Assembly: GCA_002709305.1 (NCBI GenBank)
Contig: PAQM01000006.1
Location: 248,001 to 312,000 of the forward strand
DNA: 64,000 bases
Direction: 5' to 3'
DNA from: Crocinitomicaceae bacterium
Lineage (GTDB): Bacteria > Bacteroidota > Bacteroidia > Flavobacteriales_D > Crocinitomicaceae
A program made the translations under genes and the position numbers. The notes beneath the pieces were generated by a model. That model saw only the letters and a list, made by a program, of their open reading frames with translations. It had not been told where the DNA came from and did not search any database. Positions 8,600 through 44,566 of the stretch are shown here, in pieces (within the stretch, counting starts at the first letter, position 1; each line of letters starts with the position of its first letter).

Positions 8600-11500
8600 A
8601 TGAAAAAATTAAATCTTTTATTTTTTATAGTTTTTATAATATTTACTTCACATACTCAAAACACAAAATCTAATAATTCTGATTTAATTGATAAAAAAAT
8701 TGTTTCTGGATTAAAGTTTAGACTATTAGGTCCAGCTTTAACTTCAGGAAGAATTGCTGATATTGCTATACATAATAAAAATAAGGATACTTGGTATATT
8801 GCTGCTGCTTCAGGTGGAGTTTGGAAAACAACAAATCATGGGACAACATTTAATCCTATTTTTGATAACTATGGTTCATATTCAATTGGTTGCATTACTA
8901 TAGCTCCAACAAACAAAAACACAATATGGGTAGGCACTGGTGAAAACAACAATCAACGTTCAGTGGGATACGGCGATGGAATATATAAGTCTACAGATGG
9001 AGGGAAATCATTTAAAAATATGGGACTTAAAGCATCTGAGCATATTGGAAAAATCATAATACATCCAAATAATGAAAACATTATTTGGGTAGCTGCATAT
9101 GGTCCTTTATGGAGTAAAGGTGGAGAACGTGGTGTATACAAATCAATAGATGGTGGGGAAAAATGGGTAAAAACTCTTGAAATATCTGAAAATACAGGGA
9201 TTTCTGAAATAGCAATTGATCCAAATAATCCAAATATTTTATATGCAACTTCGCATCAAAGAAGAAGAAGAGAATGGACATATATAGGAGGTGGTCCTGA
9301 ATCTAGTATTTATAAATCTACTGATGGTGGCGAAAATTGGAGGGAAATAAACTCAGGATTACCGGTTGGAGAAATGGGAAGAATTGGGATAGCAATATCT
9401 CCCGTAAATTCTGACTATATATATGCTATTGTAGAAGCAAAATATAATAAATCTGGATTTTTTAGGTCTACTAATAGAGGAGAATCATGGACAAAAATGT
9501 CAGATTATAATACTAGTGGAAATTACTATCAAGAAATTATTTGTGATCCTGAAGATGTCAACAAAGTGTTTTCAATGAATACTTGGCTTCATCACACAGA
9601 AAATGGTGGTAAATCTTTTAAAAAGACAGGTGAAAAAAATAAACATGTAGATAATCATTGTATATGGATAGATCCTAACAATAACAATCATTGGATAGTT
9701 GGATGTGACGGAGGTATATACGAAACATATAATAATGCAAAAGATTGGAAGTATTATAATAATATTCCAATTACTCAATTTTATAAAGTAGCAACAGATA
9801 ATAGTAAACCATTTTATAATATATATGGTGGAACTCAAGATAATAATTCAATGGGAGGACCATCGGCATCAATAAATAATACAGGTGTTTTAAATTCAGA
9901 TTGGTATATAACTAATGGTGGTGATGGATTTGAATCTGCTATTGATCCTGAAAACCCAAATATCGTTTATGCTCAGGCGCAATATGGCTGGTTAGTTCGA
10001 TACGATAAAAATTCTGGAGAACGAACACCTATTCAACCTATGCCAGGAAAAAATGAACCAGGATATCGATGGAATTGGGATGCCCCATTATTAATTTCTC
10101 CTCACGATAATAAAACAATATATTTTTGTTCAAATAAAGTGTTTAAAAGTACTAATCGTGGTGATGATTGGACAACAATTAGCCCAGATCTTTCTCAACA
10201 AATTGATAGAAATAAATTACCTGTAATGGATCAGGTATGGTCTATTGATGCAGTAATGAAAAATAAATCCACTACAATTTATGGTAATATTGTAGCTTTC
10301 GATGAATCACCAATTACCAAGGGATTATTATATGCCGGAACAGACGATGGTATAATACAAATATCTAATGATGATGGGATAACTTGGAACAAGATTGAAT
10401 CATTTCCAAACATTCCAAAAAATACAAGGATTAATATGATTACTGCAAGTCTTCATGATGAAAATGTTTTGTTCGCAGCTCTAAATAATCATAGGTCTGG
10501 AGATTTCAAACCATACATTTTAAAGAGTAATGATAAAGGAAAAACATGGAAATCTATATCAAGTAATCTTCCTGAAAATGGTTCTGCATTTGCAATTAAA
10601 CAAGATCATATTAATCCCGAATTACTTTTTGTTGGTACAGAATTTGGATGTTATTTCTCTATTGATAGCGGTAATAATTGGACAAAATTATCAGGACTTC
10701 CCACTATTCCTGTAATGGATATTGACATTCAAAAAAGAGAAAATGATTTAGTAATTGCGACATTCGGACGAGGTTTTTACATATTAGATAACTACAGCCC
10801 TTTAAGGTTGATTTCAAAAAGCATTTTAAACAAGGAAGCGCACCTCTTCCCTGTAAAAGACGCATTACTTTTCATACCTTCTTCCCCACTTGGTTTAAGA
10901 GGTGTTGGATCACAAGGAGCAAATATGTGGTTCGCTAAAAATCCTGATTTTGGTGCAACCTTTACATTGTATTTAAAAAAAATAAAAAAAACATTATTAT
11001 CAACTAGAAAAGAAAAAGAGAAAGAACAAGAAAAAAATAAAGAGCCTATTTCATACCCAAGTTTTGAAGAATTAAGAGCAGAAAAAAATGAATCTGAATC
11101 GGAATTAATTTGGATAATAAAAAATCAAAAAGGAGAAGAAATTAGAAGAATAATATCTAAACCTTATGAAGGAATTTCTAGAATATCATGGGATTTAAGA
11201 AAAGAGACAACATCACCTATTAAAATTAATAAACCTAAACCAGGAAGATATTCAAGCCCTGACGTTGGATTTTATGTGACACCAGGAAATTATTATGTGG
11301 AGGTAATTTATATAAAAGACAAAATTCAGAAAAAAATTATAGATTCTTTAAAATTCAATGTTATTGGACTAAATAATCAAACATTAATTGCAAATAATTT
11401 TGAAGAATTAAATGAGTTTAGATCTGAAATTGCTGAAATAAAACGTCAAATAAATGGAGCTGGAAAATTAATGAATGAAGTAGAAGAAAAACTAAAACTT

Positions 11501-17778: not shown

Positions 17779-18819
17779 TTAAACTCTTTTCTTATTAATA
17801 TAAACTTTATACAATTCATCAGCAGCTTGAAAAGAAGTCATGTCACCATTCATTACTTTTTCTTCTATATTCTTTAAAAGATTCATCATATTATCATCTA
17901 AGAAAAAATCATTATAAATCAACTCTTTCAAAGTCTCTGACAACCAATTTTTATCTTGATTTTTTCTATTGATTTGAAAATGTCCATTGGCAACTACATG
18001 TTGACGAAAATCTTCAATTACATCTAAAACACCTGAAATATTTAACTGTTCTAAAGCACTACAAGTAAGAACTTTGGGATTCCATTGATTTTTATTTGGA
18101 GGAAATAAATGAAGTGCATTTTTATATTCTAAAGCTGCTAATCTTGCTCGATTAATATTTTCTCCATCCGCCTTATTTATTACCAATGCATCCGCCATTT
18201 CCATAATTCCCTTTTTAATACCTTGTAATTCGTCACCAGCACCGGCAAGCATTAATAACAAAAAGAAATCTACCATAGATTTAACTATAGTCTCAGATTG
18301 ACCAACACCAACTGTTTCAATGAGAATAAAATCATAACCAGCTGCTTCGCAGAGTAAAATACTCTCTCTTGTCTTTCTAGCAACGCCGCCAAGATGTTGA
18401 TGAGAAGGAGAAGGTCGAATAAAAACTTTATCTTGAACTGATAATTTGTTCATACGTGTTTTGTCACCTAAAATACTTCCTCCTGAAATTGAACTCGAAG
18501 GATCTACTGCTAATACTGCGACTTTAAATCCACGCTCAATTAATAACATACCAAAAGATTCTATAAAAGTACTTTTACCTACACCTGGGACTCCTGTTAT
18601 ACCAATTCTAATGGAATTACCTGAATATGGCAAACACCTTTGAATCAAGTCATCTGATGCTTTTCTTTGGTTTTGATTATAACTTTCAATTAGAGTAATA
18701 CCTAAACTAAGTGAATTTAAATCACCTTTTATAATACCATTAAAAAGCAACTTAGGATCCATTTGTTTTCTATGATCCTTTTTACTTTTAATCCATTCTT
18801 TTATTTTCTTAGGTTCCAT
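17779..18819 (-). CDS. meaB: Methylmalonyl-CoA mutase-associated G3E GTPase MeaB (ArgK family)
   Basis: A P-loop GTPase that gates cofactor loading and protects methylmalonyl-CoA mutase. The P-loop GVPGVGKST is at residues 76-84 of the start chosen here, followed by VLAVDPSSSISGGSILGDKTRM near 105, FIRPSPSHQHLGGVA near 135, LIETVGVGQSE near 165 and VINKADGEN (the NKxD base-recognition motif) near 215. The frame is open up to an ATG at 18858, but the added residues are not family-like; the ATG at 18819, giving 346 aa that begin MEPKKIKEW, fits better. Its client mutAB lies 40 kb away at 58904-62346. Divergent from the carotenoid operon. Confidence 0.92.
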   Translation of the reverse strand: MEPKKIKEWIKSKKDHRKQMDPKLLFNGIIKGDLNSLSLGITLIESYNQNQRKASDDLIQRCLPYSGNSIRIGITGVPGVGKSTFIESFGMLLIERGFKVAVLAVDPSSSISGGSILGDKTRMNKLSVQDKVFIRPSPSHQHLGGVARKTRESILLCEAAGYDFILIETVGVGQSETIVKSMVDFFLLLMLAGAGDELQGIKKGIMEMADALVINKADGENINRARLAALEYKNALHLFPPNKNQWNPKVLTCSALEQLNISGVLDVIEDFRQHVVANGHFQINRKNQDKNWLSETLKELIYNDFFLDDNMMNLLKNIEEKVMNGDMTSFQAADELYKVYINKKRV

Positions 18820-18930
18820 AATAAAATACGAATATAAATATACATCAATGAATTTCATATTTAAGACATTTAAAAATAGTTTAAATATTTCGTTACATTT
18901 TATTGATTAAAATGTAATTATATTTACAAT

Positions 18931-20391
18931 ATGAAAAGTGTTGGAATTATTGGAGCAGGCTTATCAAGTCTATACTCTGCATGTTATTTAGCTAAAAAAG
19001 GTTATCAAGTAAAAGTATTTGATAACAATAGTATGGCAGGTGGAAGATCTCAAACTTTTAAAGAAAATGGTTTCACTTTTGATATGGGACCTTCTTGGTA
19101 TTGGATGCCTGATATTATTGATCGATTATTTAATGATTTAAATGAAAAAAGAGAAGATTATTTTAGTCTAAAACGTTTAGACCCTGCTTATAAAATATTT
19201 TGGAAAAAAGAAAAAACAAATATTCCTGCTAATTATTCAGCTCTAATAGAGCTGTTTAATAGTTTTGAAAAAGATGGCGGTGAGAAATTAGAAAATTTTT
19301 TAAATGAAGCAAAATTCAAATACGAAACTGCAATGTCTTCTTTTGTTGAGAATCCAGGCATTAAAATAAGTGAGTTATTTAAAATTAATATACTATTTAA
19401 GGCTCTAAGATTAGATATTTTTAAATCCGTTAAAAAAGATGTTTCAAATAGATTTCTTTCTGACAAATCAAAAGATATATTAAACTTCCCTGTATTATTT
19501 CTAGGAGAAAGACCTGATAAAATTCCAGCTATGTACACACTAATGAATTATGCTGATTTAATATTAGGCACATGGTATCCTGAAGGAGGAATGAATGCAA
19601 TTGCTAAAGCTTTAGAAGAATGTGCAAAAAAAAATGGAGTACTTTTCTCTTATAATACTCCGGTAGAAAAAATTGTTGTAAAAAATAATTTAGCCTTTGG
19701 TTTAAAAGTTGATGGTAAAACGATTAAATTCGATAGTATTATTGCGGGTGCAGATTATAATTATGTTGAACAACATCTTATTGAAAAAAAATACAGAAGA
19801 TACAGTGAAAAATATTGGAGAAAAAGAAGAATGGCACCTAGCTCTTTAATCTTTTATTTAGGATTAAATAAAGAGATTAAAAATTTAAAACATCATAATT
19901 TGTTTTTTGATGAAAGTCTTGATAATCATGGAAAAGAAATTTATGATCATCCTAAATGGCCTAGCAAGCCTCTATTCTATGTAAGCGCAACAACTAAGAC
20001 AGATTCTTCTACTGCTCCTAAAGGTCATGAGAACTTAATGATATTAATACCTATATCAACTGATTTAAATGACTCCAATGAAATGCGAGAAAAATACTTT
20101 AATATTATTATTAAGCGAATGGAATTACAATGCCAAGAAGAAATAATGAGTAGTATAGTGTATAAAAAATCATTTTGTATCAACGATTTTAAAAATACCT
20201 ATAATTCATACAAAGGAAATGCATATGGATTAGCAAATACACTTAAACAAACAGCAAATTTAAAACCTAAAATAAAATCAAAAATTAAGAACCTCTATTT
20301 CTGCGGACAACTTACTGTGCCTGGACCAGGAGTTCCACCAGCATTAATATCTGGAAAAATTGCTGCAAAACAATTGATTAGTGAATTATGA
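18931..20391 (+). CDS. crtI: Phytoene desaturase (CrtI-type)
   Basis: An FAD-dependent enzyme that introduces double bonds into phytoene to give lycopene. The 486-residue protein starts with the dinucleotide-binding fold GAGLSSLYSACYLAKKGY (from residue 7) and AGGRSQTF near 36, then FDMGPSWYWMPD near 50. The C-terminal CrtI signature is LYFCGQLTVPGPGVPPALISGK near 453. It is the first gene of a five-gene carotenoid operon; its TGA overlaps the crtB ATG (ATGA at 20388-20391). A CrtD-type relative that desaturates hydroxylated lycopene is possible by fold, but being adjacent to crtB favours CrtI. Confidence 0.92.
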   Translation: MKSVGIIGAGLSSLYSACYLAKKGYQVKVFDNNSMAGGRSQTFKENGFTFDMGPSWYWMPDIIDRLFNDLNEKREDYFSLKRLDPAYKIFWKKEKTNIPANYSALIELFNSFEKDGGEKLENFLNEAKFKYETAMSSFVENPGIKISELFKINILFKALRLDIFKSVKKDVSNRFLSDKSKDILNFPVLFLGERPDKIPAMYTLMNYADLILGTWYPEGGMNAIAKALEECAKKNGVLFSYNTPVEKIVVKNNLAFGLKVDGKTIKFDSIIAGADYNYVEQHLIEKKYRRYSEKYWRKRRMAPSSLIFYLGLNKEIKNLKHHNLFFDESLDNHGKEIYDHPKWPSKPLFYVSATTKTDSSTAPKGHENLMILIPISTDLNDSNEMREKYFNIIIKRMELQCQEEIMSSIVYKKSFCINDFKNTYNSYKGNAYGLANTLKQTANLKPKIKSKIKNLYFCGQLTVPGPGVPPALISGKIAAKQLISEL

Positions 20392-21224
20392 AATTATTAT
20401 TTGATGAATATTGTAAATCAGCTTCTAAACTAGTTACAAAATACTACAGTACATCTTTCTACGCTGGAGTTACTTGTTTAGGTAAGGAGTTGCGAGATGA
20501 TGTTCATAACATATATGGCTTCGTTAGACTAGCAGATGAAATTGTAGATTCTTTTCACAACTTTAATAAAAAAAAATTATTAAGTGAATTTAAAAAAGAA
20601 ACAAAGAGTTCTATAGAACAAGGAATTTCTTTAAATCCAATTCTAAACTCATTTCAAAACACAGTAAACAAATACAAAATAGATAGAAAACTCATAGATC
20701 AATTTCTTCACTCAATGGAAATGGATTTAAATCCAATTAAATATACAAACGAAAAGTATGAGGAATATATACTAGGTTCTGCTGAAGTAGTTGGTTTGAT
20801 GTGCCTGAAAATATTTGTCAATGGTAGCGAATCAAACTATGAGAGATTAAAACCAAGTGCAATGACTCTAGGTTCTGCTTTTCAAAAAATAAATTTTTTA
20901 AGAGATATAAAAGATGACATTAATAACTTGGGCCGTGTTTACTTTCCAAATATTGAAAAAAATCATTTTAATGACCAAAATAAAAAAGATATTGAAATTG
21001 AGATAGAAAAAGAATTTAACGCTGCATTAAAAGGTATTAAAATGCTTCCAAATTCTTCGAAATATGGTGTTTTCCTTAGTTATTCATACTACGAAAAATT
21101 ACTCCAAAAAATCAAAAGAAAATCTGCCGAAGATCTTTTAAAGGAAAGAGTTAGAATTTCAAATTTTTTAAAATTGATAATCCTAAAAAAAATATATTTA
21201 AAAAAAATATTTAAACTATTTTAA
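20388..21224 (+). CDS. crtB: Phytoene synthase
   Basis: Condenses two geranylgeranyl diphosphates head to head into phytoene. The 278-residue protein has the two Asp-rich magnesium-binding motifs, DEIVD at residues 50-54 and DIKDD at 173-177, plus the flanking YGFVRLAD and FQKINFLRD typical of phytoene/squalene synthases, and GRVYFP after the second motif. The N-terminal STSFYAG is also diagnostic. It is translationally coupled to crtI through a 4-base overlap. No crtE (GGPP synthase) lies in the window, so the substrate must come from a gene elsewhere. Confidence 0.95.
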   Translation: MKLLFDEYCKSASKLVTKYYSTSFYAGVTCLGKELRDDVHNIYGFVRLADEIVDSFHNFNKKKLLSEFKKETKSSIEQGISLNPILNSFQNTVNKYKIDRKLIDQFLHSMEMDLNPIKYTNEKYEEYILGSAEVVGLMCLKIFVNGSESNYERLKPSAMTLGSAFQKINFLRDIKDDINNLGRVYFPNIEKNHFNDQNKKDIEIEIEKEFNAALKGIKMLPNSSKYGVFLSYSYYEKLLQKIKRKSAEDLLKERVRISNFLKLIILKKIYLKKIFKLF

Positions 21225-21233
21225 AAATAAATA

Positions 21234-21845
21234 ATGAACAAAATAAATTTAAGTATACTATTATTGTTTCATATTATTGGAATATTAATATTCATATTTT
21301 ACCCTAATTATGTTTCATTATCATATATTACTTTATCTGTATGTGGTTTAAGTGTTTTTATTGCAGAAAAAAACAAATCAAAAGTCTATATCGCATACCT
21401 TTCAATATTTATCTTAGGTTTTATAATTGAATTTATTGGGGTCCACACTAACTATTTATTTGGAAATTATGTTTATGGGAATTCGCTTGGTTACAAATCA
21501 GAAGGTATACCTATAATTATTGGTGTAAATTGGATAACTATTGTAATTTCAAGTACATCATTAATAAAAGGGATTAAATTCATCAAAAACAATTTTATTA
21601 TTGCTTTAACTTCAGGCATTTTATGTACAATATTGGATTTTATTATTGAACCTGTAGCGATAAAGTTCGATTTTTGGTCATGGAAAAATAATATTATTCC
21701 AATATCTAATTATATTGACTGGTTTATTTTTAGCTTTCTTTTCTCATACATATATGCAAGGGTAAAAACACCAATAAATAAGATTGCTATTTATTTATTT
21801 TTTATTTGGATTATTTTCTTTACTTTGATTCAATGGATGGCATAA
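21234..21845 (+). CDS. Carotenoid biosynthesis membrane protein, CruF-like (PF04240 type)
   Basis: A 203-residue protein with about six membrane helices. The segments EFIGVHTNYLFGNYVYG near residue 66, a PIIIGVNWITI stretch near 87 and DFIIEPVAIKFDFWSW near 130 match the family that contains CruF, a carotenoid 1',2'-hydratase that adds water to the psi end of acyclic or monocyclic carotenoids. Function is inferred from the family and from sitting between crtB and crtZ. If it is a hydratase, the product would be a monocyclic 1'-hydroxy carotenoid (saproxanthin-like) rather than plain zeaxanthin. It overlaps the crtZ start by 13 bases. Confidence 0.78.
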   Translation: MNKINLSILLLFHIIGILIFIFYPNYVSLSYITLSVCGLSVFIAEKNKSKVYIAYLSIFILGFIIEFIGVHTNYLFGNYVYGNSLGYKSEGIPIIIGVNWITIVISSTSLIKGIKFIKNNFIIALTSGILCTILDFIIEPVAIKFDFWSWKNNIIPISNYIDWFIFSFLFSYIYARVKTPINKIAIYLFFIWIIFFTLIQWMA

Positions 21846-22279
21846 TATTTATAATTGGATTATTTACTTCATTTTTGTTAATGGAATTTATTGCTTGGTT
21901 TGCACATAAATATATAATGCATGGATTCTTATGGAAGATACATGAAGACCACCACAAACCAACTGGTCATATTTTTCAAAAAAATGATTGGTTTTTTCTC
22001 ATTTTTGCAGTTCCATCATGGCAATTCATTATGCTTGGATTCATATTTGAAAGTGTAATATCAATTGGGGTTGGTTTTGGTATTGCTCTTTATGGTATTG
22101 CCTACTTTATGATACATGAAGTTTTAATTCATCGAAGATTTAATTGGCTTGACAACATAGATAACAGATATTTTAAAGCAGTAAAAAAAGCACATCGTAC
22201 TCACCATAAAAAAACAGAAAAAGAAAATGGAGAGTGTTTTGGATTATTATATGTACCTAAAAAATATTGGAAAAAATGA
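21833..22279 (+). CDS. crtZ: Beta-carotene hydroxylase
   Basis: Hydroxylates C-3 of beta-ionone rings to give zeaxanthin-type ends. The di-iron His motifs are all present: FAHKYIMHG, HEDHHKP, HEVLIHRRF and HRTHHKK. This makes it a membrane-bound fatty acid hydroxylase superfamily member with a hydrophobic N-terminus. The frame opens further upstream at a TTG (21806), but the ATG at 21833, inside the last codons of the previous gene, gives the normal start MDGIIFIIG and 148 residues. The TGA overlaps the next ATG (22276-22279). Confidence 0.93.
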   Translation: MDGIIFIIGLFTSFLLMEFIAWFAHKYIMHGFLWKIHEDHHKPTGHIFQKNDWFFLIFAVPSWQFIMLGFIFESVISIGVGFGIALYGIAYFMIHEVLIHRRFNWLDNIDNRYFKAVKKAHRTHHKKTEKENGECFGLLYVPKKYWKK

Positions 22280-22953
22280 AAACATTATATCTAATGATTA
22301 ATTTAGGAACCTTTTTGTGTGCTTTTTTTTTAAGTTTTGACAAAAAAATAAATTATCAAAAATCTTGGAAATCATCATTTCTTTCAAGTGTTATAATCGG
22401 AATTCCTTTTATTATTTGGGATATAATCTTTACTAAAAATAAATTTTGGGGTTTTAACGAGGAATATATTACTGAAATATATATTTACAATCTTCCTATT
22501 GAAGAAATTCTCTTTTTCATATGCATTCCATTTTCATGCACATTTATATATGAAGTTTGTAAACATTATTTTAAAAAATTAAATATGAATAATTTCAATA
22601 GAGTATTTTATATATTGATAATATTATACTCCATCTTTTTAATAATATCGGAAAAAGGAATTGGCTATTACACCTTATCAGTAGTCATATCATCATCTCT
22701 TATTCTACTATGGTTAAATTTCAACAATTATTATACTTATATACCAATTGCATTTTTTATAAGTATTATCCCCTTTCTTTTAGTCAATGGTCTTCTTACA
22801 GGATTTTTTACAGAAGAGCCGATTGTCTGGTATAACGAAAATCAAAAAATTAATCAACGTATATTTACGATTCCAATAGAAGATGTATTATATAGCTTTA
22901 CGCTTATTGTATCAAACATAATTGTTTTTGAAAAATTAAAAAAACAATTTTAG
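22276..22953 (+). CDS. Lycopene beta-cyclase, fused CrtYc-CrtYd type
   Basis: Forms beta-ionone rings on lycopene. The 225-residue membrane protein has two related halves of three helices each. The first ends in WGFNEEYITEIYIYNLPIEE and the second in VWYNENQKINQRIFTIPIEDVLY; these paired IPxE motifs define the heterodimeric-type cyclase (CrtYc/CrtYd of Actinobacteria) joined in one chain, the usual form in Bacteroidota and related to the fungal and archaeal enzymes. The start is the ATG at 22276 overlapping the crtZ stop (ATGA); an in-frame TTG nine bases earlier is not needed. Confidence 0.88.
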   Translation: MKTLYLMINLGTFLCAFFLSFDKKINYQKSWKSSFLSSVIIGIPFIIWDIIFTKNKFWGFNEEYITEIYIYNLPIEEILFFICIPFSCTFIYEVCKHYFKKLNMNNFNRVFYILIILYSIFLIISEKGIGYYTLSVVISSSLILLWLNFNNYYTYIPIAFFISIIPFLLVNGLLTGFFTEEPIVWYNENQKINQRIFTIPIEDVLYSFTLIVSNIIVFEKLKKQF

Positions 22954-22955
22954 TA

Positions 22956-23453
22956 ATGAAAAACATTGGTCTAATATCTGATACACACGGATTTATTGAT
23001 CCTAAAATATATAAATACTTCAAAAATGTAGATGAAATATGGCACGCTGGAGACATAGGTACCTTAGATGTAATCGATGAATTAAGAGCTTTTAAACCAT
23101 TAAGAGGTGTATATGGAAATATCGATGGTTCAGAGATAAGAAGAGAGTTTAAAGAAATATCTAGATTCAAATGTGAAAATGTTAATGTACTTATGACTCA
23201 TATTGGTGGAAGACCAGGTAAATATTATAAAAATATAGAACGAATTCTAAAAGAAGAAAATCCTAATTTATTCATTTGTGGTCATTCACATATTCTTCTA
23301 GTTAAAATGGATCCGAAATACAATATGCTCTGGATAAATCCTGGCGCATCTGGTTATAAAGGATTTCACAAAAAAAAAACGATTATTAGATTTTCAATAA
23401 CTAAAGATAAAATTCATAATCTTGAAGTAATTGAAATGGGAAAAAGAATTTAG
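22956..23453 (+). CDS. YfcE/MJ0936-type metallophosphoesterase
   Basis: A small calcineurin-like phosphodiesterase of 165 residues with every metal motif: SDTHG at 7-11, HAGDIG near 30, GNIDGS near 51, THIGGRPG near 76 and CGHSHI near 103, then INPGASG. It hydrolyses phosphodiesters in vitro in related proteins; the physiological substrate is unknown. It begins two bases after the cyclase stop, so it is the sixth gene of the carotenoid transcript, though no biochemical link to carotenoids is known. Confidence 0.88.
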   Translation: MKNIGLISDTHGFIDPKIYKYFKNVDEIWHAGDIGTLDVIDELRAFKPLRGVYGNIDGSEIRREFKEISRFKCENVNVLMTHIGGRPGKYYKNIERILKEENPNLFICGHSHILLVKMDPKYNMLWINPGASGYKGFHKKKTIIRFSITKDKIHNLEVIEMGKRI

Positions 23454-23492: not shown

Positions 23493-24518
23493 ATGTTAAA
23501 ATTTTTAATGATATTATTACCTTTTTCGGTTTTCTCTCAAACAGGAGGTGAAAATTCTTTTGCATTACTAAATTTAACATATAATGCTCGCTCAGCTGGT
23601 TTAGGAGGAAATTTTATATCTGTTTTTGATAAAGATATCAATATGGGGATCAGTAACCCATCATTATGTAATACCAAAATGAACAAACAAATTAGTTTTA
23701 ATTCAGGTATACTATCAGGAAATATTAATTATGGAGCTTTAGGATACGGGTATAATATTAAAAATATTGGAACTTTAGTTAGTTATATCAAATATGTTAA
23801 TTATGGTAAATTAATAAGAACAGATATAAATGGAGTCTCTGACGGCACTTTTTCTCCATTTGAAATGATTATAGGAACATCTTTTGGGAAAGAATTAAAT
23901 CCACGTATCTCGATTGGTGGTTCGGTTAATTTTTTATATTCCCAATTAGAGATTTATAATTCGTTTGGTGCATCTATTGATTTTTCAGGAACCTATCATA
24001 ATAATGACAAAAACATGCTTATTACTATACTTGCAAAAAATATCGGATATCAATTTGATCCATTTGTAAGTGGAAATAGATTTCCATTACCATTAGAAAT
24101 TCAAGCAGCAGTATCATATAAAGTTAAATATGCTCCTTTTAGATTTACATTGTTAGGCCATAACTTAAATAAATGGGATATTAGTTATAATGATCCTAAT
24201 ATTCAACCTACCATAGACCAACTAACAGGAGATACTATTCCTATCCCAAAAATAAGTTTCTTTGAAAAGTTAGGCAGACACTTTTCTTATCAATTAGAAG
24301 TTTTTGTTTCAAAAAATATTGATTTAAGAATTGGATTTGACTATCACAGGAGAAAAGAATTAGCACTTGAAAGCAGACCCGGTCTTTCTGGTTTCTCATT
24401 TGGACTAGGTCTCAATTTTGATAAATTTAGCCTAGATTACGGTTTTATGATTTATTCTAGATCAGGATTTAACAACCTAATAACACTATCCACACAGCTT
24501 GATAAGTGGCGAAAATAA
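23493..24518 (+). CDS. porQ: Type IX secretion system outer-membrane protein PorQ
   Basis: A 341-residue exported beta-barrel-like protein (signal peptide MLKFLMILLPFSVFSQ). The mature start GGENSFALLNLTYNARSAGLGGNFISV followed by NPSLCN is the PorQ/PorV family signature. PorQ works with PorU, PorV and PorZ in the attachment complex that removes C-terminal sorting signals and anchors type IX cargo to the cell surface. In many Flavobacteriia porQ lies beside cmk; here they are separated by one outer-membrane protein gene. A TTTTTG/TAATTTAG pair just upstream is a weak promoter candidate. Confidence 0.85.
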   Translation: MLKFLMILLPFSVFSQTGGENSFALLNLTYNARSAGLGGNFISVFDKDINMGISNPSLCNTKMNKQISFNSGILSGNINYGALGYGYNIKNIGTLVSYIKYVNYGKLIRTDINGVSDGTFSPFEMIIGTSFGKELNPRISIGGSVNFLYSQLEIYNSFGASIDFSGTYHNNDKNMLITILAKNIGYQFDPFVSGNRFPLPLEIQAAVSYKVKYAPFRFTLLGHNLNKWDISYNDPNIQPTIDQLTGDTIPIPKISFFEKLGRHFSYQLEVFVSKNIDLRIGFDYHRRKELALESRPGLSGFSFGLGLNFDKFSLDYGFMIYSRSGFNNLITLSTQLDKWRK

Positions 24519-43166: not shown

Positions 43167-44566
43167 TCTGTTTTATCCTTTATTACCTGAGCAAGCATTT
43201 CTGCCTCTACAACTGATTTACCATCAACATAACCAACACCTGACATATGAACTAAACCTCTTCTAATTGGAGATATTAATTTAAGTTCAAAAACTAATGT
43301 GTCTCCCGGAATAACTTTTTGCTTAAACTTCACCTTATCTATTTTCATAAAGTATGTAGAGAATAAATGTGGATTATCCACTTTACTTAATGCAAAAATA
43401 CCACCGACTTGTGCCATCGACTCAATTTGAAGAACTCCTGGGAAAATAGGATTTTTAGGGAAATGACCTGTAAATATAGGCTCATTCATAGTTATATTTT
43501 TAACACCAATAATTGAATCTTCAAAAAGATCTATCACTTTATCAACTAGTAAAAAAGGAAAACGATGTGGCAACATAGATTCAATATCATTGATGTTATA
43601 AACAGGTTTTTTTGTCAAATCAAAGTAACGTTCAACCGTTTTTTTAGATTTCATATACTCCTTTAAAACTTTAGCGAAACAAACATTTCCATAATGTCCT
43701 GTTCTAGCAGCTAAAACATGTGCTTTTAATGGACGACCAATTAAAGCTAAATCACCAACAATATCCAGAAGCTTGTGTCTTGCTGGTTCATTTTCAAAAT
43801 TTAAATTTGTACTATTCAATACACCTATTCCATCAATTTTAACTTCAACATCTTCTTTACCTAGTAATTTTGCTAAATCAGCTAATTCTTGTTTACTTAC
43901 TTTTTCTCTTTCTACTAGGACTATAGCATTGTCTAAATTCCCACCTTTAATTAAATTATTTTTCGCTAAAACTTCTAATTCTTTCAAAAAAACAAAAGTT
44001 CTAGATGGAGCAATTTCTTTATTGAATTCAGAAATACTATACATAGAAGCATGCTGAGTTCCAAGAACAGGTGAATTATAATCAACCATTACTGTTAGTC
44101 GATAATTAGAATCAGGTATAGCTAAAAATTCAATCCCTTTTGCTTCGTCTTCCCATTTAATATTCTCATCAAGCTCAAGGTATATCCGCTCCTTATTTTG
44201 GTTAGTATAACCAACCTTCTCTATTGAATCTACAAATAATTTTGAGCTACCATCCATAATAGGAACTTCAGGACCATTAATTTTAATTAACGCATTATCA
44301 ACTTGACAACCATATAGAGCTGCAAGTATATGCTCAGTAGTATTAACACGAACTCCGTTTTCCTCAAGAGTTGTACCACGCTCAGTTGATACCACCAAGT
44401 CGCAATCAGCTCTAACAATTGGCTGTCCCTCTATATCTGTTCGTTGAAATCTATAACCGAAATTTTCTTTTGCAGGAGATATTTCTAAATCAACTTTTTC
44501 TCCTGTATGTAAACCAACTCCAGAAAATAGAATAGATTCCTTTATCGTTCTCTGCATTTCTGACAT
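43163..44566 (-). CDS. lpxC/fabZ: Bifunctional UDP-3-O-acyl-N-acetylglucosamine deacetylase / 3-hydroxyacyl-ACP dehydratase
   Basis: A 467-residue fusion characteristic of Bacteroidota. Residues 1-305 are LpxC: QRTIKESILFSGVGLHTG at the start, the zinc ligand His in TTEHILAALYG near 77, and HKLLDIVGDLAL near 262 with the other His and Asp. Residues about 320-467 are FabZ: MLPHRFPFLLVDKVIDL near 328 with the catalytic His and GHFPKNPIFPGVLQIESMAQ near 365 with the Glu-bearing helix. It couples the committed step of lipid A synthesis with fatty acid dehydration, which compete for the same hydroxyacyl-ACP. Between lpxD and lpxA. Confidence 0.97.
   Translation of the reverse strand: MSEMQRTIKESILFSGVGLHTGEKVDLEISPAKENFGYRFQRTDIEGQPIVRADCDLVVSTERGTTLEENGVRVNTTEHILAALYGCQVDNALIKINGPEVPIMDGSSKLFVDSIEKVGYTNQNKERIYLELDENIKWEDEAKGIEFLAIPDSNYRLTVMVDYNSPVLGTQHASMYSISEFNKEIAPSRTFVFLKELEVLAKNNLIKGGNLDNAIVLVEREKVSKQELADLAKLLGKEDVEVKIDGIGVLNSTNLNFENEPARHKLLDIVGDLALIGRPLKAHVLAARTGHYGNVCFAKVLKEYMKSKKTVERYFDLTKKPVYNINDIESMLPHRFPFLLVDKVIDLFEDSIIGVKNITMNEPIFTGHFPKNPIFPGVLQIESMAQVGGIFALSKVDNPHLFSTYFMKIDKVKFKQKVIPGDTLVFELKLISPIRRGLVHMSGVGYVDGKSVVEAEMLAQVIKDKTE

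Follow-up and report, generated by a model that had tools for sequence, protein, structure and literature searches.

Positions 18931–22953 (+ strand) of a 64,000-nucleotide stretch of a Crocinitomicaceae bacterium genome carry the carotenoid genes crtI, crtB, a cruF-like gene, crtZ, and crtYcd, in this order. With a probability of about 75%, this operon is a compact form of the monocyclic-carotenoid cluster of Bacteroidota and would yield, as its main product, the orange pigment saproxanthin or a close relative of it, alongside zeaxanthin as a co-product. Saproxanthin, the structure of which is known, occurs in marine Bacteroidota. The whole stretch, hereafter the window, corresponds to positions 248001–312000 of contig C6 in a 2.3-Mb genome (G000) of 29 contigs that is 99.7% complete. 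The original prediction for this DNA, that a hydratase combined with a ring hydroxylase and a cyclase should yield a monocyclic dihydroxy carotenoid, gained support from a CrtD gene that we located on contig C15.

Gene families and layout of the operon

The five carotenoid genes are followed, after 2 bases, by a gene for a YfcE-type metallophosphoesterase. The preceding junctions are, in order, a 4-base overlap, a 9-base gap, a 13-base overlap, and a 4-base overlap. The carotenoid genes had been described earlier as coupled, and this description held: they are joined by overlaps or by gaps of at most 9 bases, they have Pfam matches, and their order recurs in genus-mates. Because all six open reading frames (ORFs) exceeded Pfam family cut-offs and the order recurs, the gene set is more than a chance assembly. 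Transcription as a single unit is likely.

Four members of the saproxanthin/flexixanthin-type set, crtB, crtI, crtYcd, and crtZ, each exceeded a Pfam cut-off. crtI (18931–20391, +) was assigned to FAD-dependent phytoene desaturases (TIGR02734, 377 bits; cut-off, 238). crtB (20388–21224, +), encoding a phytoene synthase (PF00494, 146 bits; cut-off, 26), was the sole PF00494 match in the genome at an E-value of 0.001, and its product did not reach the cut-off of any NCBIfam CrtB model. crtZ (21833–22279, +), encoding a beta-ring 3-hydroxylase (PF04116, 50 bits; cut-off, 31), most likely starts at the ATG at 21833, with an alternative upstream TTG at 21806. CrtZ matched no NCBIfam model, and its assignment is based on the PF04116 superfamily and on four His motifs in the translation (HKYIMH, HEDHH, HEVLIH, and HRTHH). 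crtYcd (22276–22953, +) encodes a fused, heterodimer-type lycopene beta-cyclase that matched both PF18916 (120 bits) and TIGR03462 (94.6 bits; cut-off, 39.4) in two stretches; its likeliest start is the ATG at 22276, with an alternative upstream TTG at 22267.

The cruF-like gene (21234–21845, +) encodes a membrane protein of the carotenoid 1,2-hydratase family (PF04240, 87 bits; cut-off, 25), which was present in 121 of the 150 genomes sampled from the family of this bacterium. The protein kept all 21 columns that were invariant among the other 45 homologues in one alignment and all 19 invariant columns of a second alignment with 42 others; the invariant columns kept include E66, D135, E139, W100, W148, W150, N159, and W163. 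Catalytic data for CruF were described as unpublished as of 2015 (PMC4717167). The AlphaFold2 model of the protein had seven helices and a predicted local distance difference test score (pLDDT) of 96.8. The best structural match of the model (21234–21842) was the Insig homologue MvINS, with a Foldseek E-value of 0.35 and a VIA-align Z-score of 8.2 over 133 residues at 3.2 Å, a score in a range common for helical bundles. A functional assignment via the fold was dropped, since the MvINS match, the best among the families listed by VIA-align, was too weak to indicate a shared origin. Sequence searches at an E-value of 1 found no solved relatives of CruF or CrtYcd.

CrtD at a separate site and the predicted pathway

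The CrtD gene lies at 23355–24827 of contig C15 (NF042421, 592 bits; cut-off, 500), and the idea that the lack of crtD in the operon means a lack of 3′,4′-desaturation was therefore rejected. Against the solved gamma-carotene desaturase 4rep, the C15 protein scored 485 bits, and the window CrtI reached 208 bits. A midpoint-rooted tree was built from 53 sequences, with a few proteins entered twice; in it, the window CrtI grouped with CrtI of Algoriphagus and of the genus, and the C15 protein grouped with CrtD proteins, each clade with a support of 1.0. The gene is located in a bshC-ppiB-crtD-dnaX arrangement, with gene names confirmed by Pfam. Dispersed crtD genes lay beside ppiB and bshC in all ten other contexts read, and dnaX was within the stretch in eight of them.

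Among 34 genus genomes, a CrtD-type gene was present in 18 of 18 with CruF versus 6 of 16 without it (Fisher p = 6e-5, uncorrected for phylogeny). Among the 18 genomes with CruF, the CrtD-type gene was dispersed only in eight, adjoined cruF only in nine, and occurred at both places in one. The cruF-adjacent CrtD proteins of G138 and G164 exceeded the CrtD cut-off and grouped with the dispersed CrtD in one broad clade. The presence of CrtD elsewhere in the genome, together with a CrtD-type gene in every CruF genome of the genus, strengthens the prediction of a saproxanthin-like product.

The operon had also been described as being without crtE, rhodopsin, or a dioxygenase, with geranylgeranyl diphosphate (GGPP) synthase, rhodopsin, and a retinal-forming dioxygenase placed either elsewhere or absent. 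The description is correct within the window and fails genome-wide, where polyprenyl synthases, rhodopsin, and Blh were found; "elsewhere" is the alternative that applies, with synthase candidates on contigs C24 and C25, and rhodopsin and Blh on C24. A search of the rest of the genome for crtE, crtD, blh, and rhodopsin, as had been suggested, thus recovered the latter three, and the candidates for crtE were two polyprenyl synthase genes (PF00348), one on C25 and one on C24, whose products scored below every NCBIfam cut-off. The C25 protein matched short-chain models best (IdsA, 273 bits against a cut-off of 468; GGPP_syn, 257 against 500). Either gene is a candidate source of GGPP.

From the gene families, their order, and their co-occurrence, we infer the following enzyme activities and order of reactions. 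GGPP would be supplied by a polyprenyl synthase encoded outside the window and converted to lycopene by CrtB and CrtI. CruF would add water to one psi end and thereby block it, CrtYcd would turn the other end into a beta ring, and CrtZ would hydroxylate this ring at C-3. CrtD, from its separate site, would introduce the 3′,4′ double bond. Zeaxanthin would be formed where CrtYcd outpaces CruF, and the retinal of proteorhodopsin would come from a separate CrtY-Blh fusion. A related set has been reported to be active in Escherichia coli: CruF, CrtY, CrtD, and CrtZ of Nonlabens spongiae were functional in this host, and CrtY and CruF together yielded mainly 1′-hydroxy-gamma-carotene (PMC11855829).

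Several observations weigh against a saproxanthin-type product. N. spongiae CrtY by itself gave mainly beta-carotene (PMC11855829), and zeaxanthin could therefore dominate; taken together with the product of CrtY plus CruF, this makes a mixture of a monocyclic pigment and zeaxanthin the sober prediction. The CruF-like protein matched three NCBIfam CruF models and fell short of the cut-off each time (67 bits against 154.7 for TIGR03460, 45 against 300, and 27.5 against 400); since two of the three models are archaeal by name, these scores bar the equivalog label and do not bar membership in the wider family. The two CruF alignments were built without any CruF of a tested organism. Four of the cruF-adjacent CrtD-type proteins had the CrtD model as their best match at 364–448 bits against a cut-off of 500 and formed a sister clade, so that the count of 18 mixes clear and probable CrtD. 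A dispersed CrtD orthologue was also present in six genus genomes without a PF04240 match (G141, G153, G156, G158, G159, and G162; 60–69% identity, partial in G153; genome completeness, 72–93%). The tie between CrtD and CruF is therefore not exclusive, and these six genomes are not accounted for by the proposed pathway. Finally, no genome-wide search aimed at crtW, crtA-OH, crtG, and glycosyltransferase genes was made; none of them was recognized within the operon or in the proteins from outside the window that were scanned against family libraries.

The last point bears on an alternative in which an off-window ketolase, 2-hydroxylase, or glycosyltransferase would make the end product flexixanthin, myxol, or a glycoside rather than saproxanthin. 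The same core accompanied by crtW or crtA-OH has been reported from Algoriphagus, with flexixanthin, and Nonlabens, with myxol (PMC10784355, PMC11855829). The lack of a recognized tailoring gene argues weakly against this alternative, which appears rather unlikely and partly overlaps with the near relatives of saproxanthin allowed for above.

Zeaxanthin would be the main product if CrtYcd cyclized both ends ahead of CruF and the hydratase were weak or served a minor product. Besides the beta-carotene formed by N. spongiae CrtY alone, the zeaxanthin contents of Nonlabens species, which range from 3 mol% in N. arenilitoris to 58 mol% in N. marinus (PMC11855829), are in line with this possibility, as are three genus-mates (G141, G159, and G162) that carry crtI-crtB-crtZ-crtYcd without cruF. 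However, CruF in the window has retained its position in the operon as well as the residues that are invariant in its homologues, every CruF genome of the genus has a CrtD-type gene, and the CrtD counterpart of N. spongiae uses 1′-hydroxy-gamma-carotene (PMC11855829). Zeaxanthin as the main product is thus clearly unlikely. It is very unlikely that the window CrtI itself performs 3′,4′-desaturation and that the C15 CrtD has another task: CrtI exceeded the cut-off of the NCBIfam model "CrtID bifunctional" (NF058655, 656 bits; cut-off, 640) by 16 bits, the C15-type CrtD occurs without CruF in the six genomes named above, and two enzymes of Haloarcula japonica reportedly have dual activity (PMC11946383), but every CruF genome of the genus keeps a CrtD-type gene, and Algoriphagus, whose CrtI falls into the same clade as the window CrtI, has a separate crtD in its predicted set (PMC10784355).

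Proteorhodopsin and a CrtY-Blh fusion outside the window

The proteorhodopsin match lies at 44386–45045 of contig C24, and the gene spans 10366–11094 (− strand) of locus L013. The protein has a DTE motif, is 78% identical to the rhodopsin of G126, and is close to PDB entries 9jov and 9jou, the nearest solved rhodopsins; no relevant paper on these two entries was found in the open-access literature. At the fenestration site, corresponding to Gly156 of XR and Gly153 of Kin4B8, the protein has Gly139, which aligns with Phe of green proteorhodopsin, and Gly was found there in all 32 family rhodopsins aligned. Phe has been reported in GPR at the site of GR Gly178 (PMC9151804). Three of the four features reported for 3-hydroxy-carotenoid sites were kept (Gly139, Tyr191, and Thr195), and the fourth differed, with Ala196 in this protein and Thr in 26 of the 32 family rhodopsins. 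The protein is a candidate carotenoid-binding pump. The Tyr191 site does not discriminate, because green proteorhodopsin also has Tyr there. The reported Kin4B8 sites are Tyr204 and two positions with polar residues, 208 and 209; KR1 has Y, T, and D at these three (table 2 of PMC12308411). The sites were mapped through the Y-M-x-x-T pattern of KR1 and not through a direct alignment with Kin4B8. Binding of 3-hydroxylated xanthophylls has been reported for KR1, a proteorhodopsin from a flavobacterium, and binding of salinixanthin, a carotenoid without a second ring, for Kin4B8 (PMC12308411).

CruF was present in all 36 rhodopsin-bearing family genomes versus 85 of the 114 others (p = 2e-4); for 19 genus genomes, p was 0.01–0.02. 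Among the 36, rhodopsin matches exceeded the family cut-off in 35, and a few genomes had fragments. These tests ignore phylogeny, and the p values therefore overstate the evidence. It is possible, although we would place it below even odds, that two cyclase channels draw on one lycopene pool: the window operon, with CrtD, would supply a monocyclic 3-hydroxy carotenoid as an antenna fitting into the proteorhodopsin fenestration, and CrtY-Blh would supply the retinal of the same protein. The association between rhodopsin and CruF would fit such an antenna but is confounded by phylogeny.

The gene for the CrtY-Blh fusion (42346–44334 of contig C24, − strand; L013:8344–10335) is located directly downstream of the proteorhodopsin gene and encodes 663 residues, with an N-terminal CrtY-type cyclase domain (PF05834, 122 bits) and a C-terminal Blh domain (PF15461, 108 bits). 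It thus provides a second lycopene cyclase, unrelated to the CrtYcd of the window, and is a candidate bifunctional lycopene-to-retinal enzyme. Matches covering at least 600 of the 663 residues were found in 25 of 150 family genomes (three of the rows have a stop flag), and a rhodopsin match was present in 23 of the 25. The fusion adjoined the rhodopsin gene in 11 of the 16 cases examined at longer range, and rhodopsin was elsewhere in five. Across 395 genomes of the phylum, a full-length fusion with an open frame was present in G000, in a second member of its family, and in three genomes from a different family (f23). A match in G286 spans the query but has an internal stop, and the other matches listed for the phylum were CrtY or Blh alone, sometimes side by side. 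Among 30 fusion ORFs, two of which were cut short, every ungapped row kept five His residues in the Blh part (430, 483, 515, 587, and 650).

In the open-access literature as accessible to us, the only precedent was the CrtI-CrtB-CrtYcd-Blh protein of Thecamonas trahens (PMC10016063). It likewise combines Blh with a lycopene cyclase within a single chain, but it is eukaryotic, has a CrtYcd-type cyclase, and consists of four domains, whereas CrtY-Blh has a CrtY-type cyclase (PF05834) and two domains. The bacterial fusion may be new, and it may also already be in print. Two further genes lie beside the CrtY-Blh gene: one for a FAD amine-oxidase/desaturase-like protein of 410 amino acids (L013:6667–7899, +) and, 6 bases after CrtY-Blh on the same strand, one for a 135-residue protein without a family match (L013:7930–8337, −).

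Flanks, upstream region, and variation of the site

The operon is bordered on the left by the divergent meaB (17779–18858, −; NF006958, 461 bits) and on the right by porQ of type IX secretion (23493–24518, +; NF033711, 303 bits; cut-off, 220), and the six genes between them are all on the + strand. Upstream of crtI, a candidate Bacteroidota −7 promoter element, TATATTTA, is located at 18919–18926 (+), 4 bases 5′ of the crtI ATG. It resembles TAnnTTTG, which we take to be the consensus of the −7 element in Bacteroidota, and a similar element was found by eye just 5′ of the crtI ATG in six of seven genus operons, this one included. A scan for sigma-70 promoters and terminators gave no excess over shuffled sequences. 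Between meaB and crtI, there is also a perfect 10-base inverted repeat, TTACATTTTA-N5-TAAAATGTAA (18893–18917), the sequence of which was not conserved among the six relatives compared; in G126, another repeat, of 7 bases, occurs at roughly this position. A merR gene, which lies between meaB and crtI in some relatives, is missing from the window site.

The YfcE-type gene (22956–23453, +; TIGR00040, 59 bits; cut-off, 56) had been called an unexplained passenger 2 bases after the cyclase. The distance was confirmed, and the gene proved to be less puzzling, since yfcE-porQ exists without carotenoid genes. Among 29 yfcE loci of the genus, porQ was next in 25 and a crtYcd match was upstream in 23; yfcE-porQ was kept in all six loci without an upstream crtYcd. 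In four of these six, meaB was upstream (directly in two, via an ORF of no assigned family in one, and via idi in one), and the fifth had merR and idi. No yfcE match was found at 29 CruF loci outside the genus (L120–L148), some of whose stretches end at contig ends. Membership of YfcE in the pathway was rejected, because the gene stays by porQ where crtYcd is absent; YfcE is a neighbor at this site, beside which the carotenoid genes have been gained or lost. Between meaB and yfcE, the loci L244 (G099), L245 (G135), L191 (G138), L187 (G091), and L186 (G147) had idi with a crtYcd match (29–48% identity), idi alone, or merR with idi. These reduced loci may reflect either partial loss of the cluster or a different arrangement.

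Forty CruF regions, 11 of them from the genus, were read. The 11 genus regions, some of which were cut by contig ends, contained merR in five, an idi-like NUDIX gene in seven, and a crtD-type gene in seven; the window operon has none of the three. The merR product combines MerR with a B12-binding domain. Fuller clusters of genus-mates, e.g., G083/L118 and G052/L115, occupy the same site with meaB, crtI, crtB, cruF, crtZ, crtYcd, yfcE, and porQ, and add merR, the idi-like NUDIX gene, and, within the operon, a crtD whose product is 34–39% identical to the C15 CrtD. Two published sets are close parallels. In the Algoriphagus flexixanthin set (PMC10784355), Algoriphagus sp. MSM8 (L306) has, by similarity, cruF, crtZ, a merR-like gene, a sigma-like gene, crtI, and crtB in a row, whereas the window operon has no crtW, merR, or sigma genes and a different gene order. 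The myxol cluster of N. spongiae and strain P99-3 comprises crtB, crtI, crtY, cruF, crtD, and crtZ, with crtE outside the cluster, and the crtY of N. spongiae resembles crtYm of P99-3 more than it does the crtY of Pantoea (PMC11855829); in contrast to this cluster, the window operon is without crtA-OH and its crtD lies outside the operon.

The operon would thus be one more, slimmed-down case of a known Bacteroidota pigment cluster. It illustrates that seemingly missing steps of a pathway can be encoded far away, as with crtD at a housekeeping site common to many genus-mates. The CrtY-Blh fusion and the fenestrated rhodopsin are the parts that a specialist might pursue. If the antenna proposal is true, it would provide a natural monocyclic antenna for a Bacteroidota proteorhodopsin, similar to salinixanthin in xanthorhodopsin, and would explain the presence of CruF in all 36 rhodopsin-bearing genomes. 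In that case, the monocyclic carotenoid genes of this family would belong to its phototrophy system and would not solely provide a photoprotective pigment.

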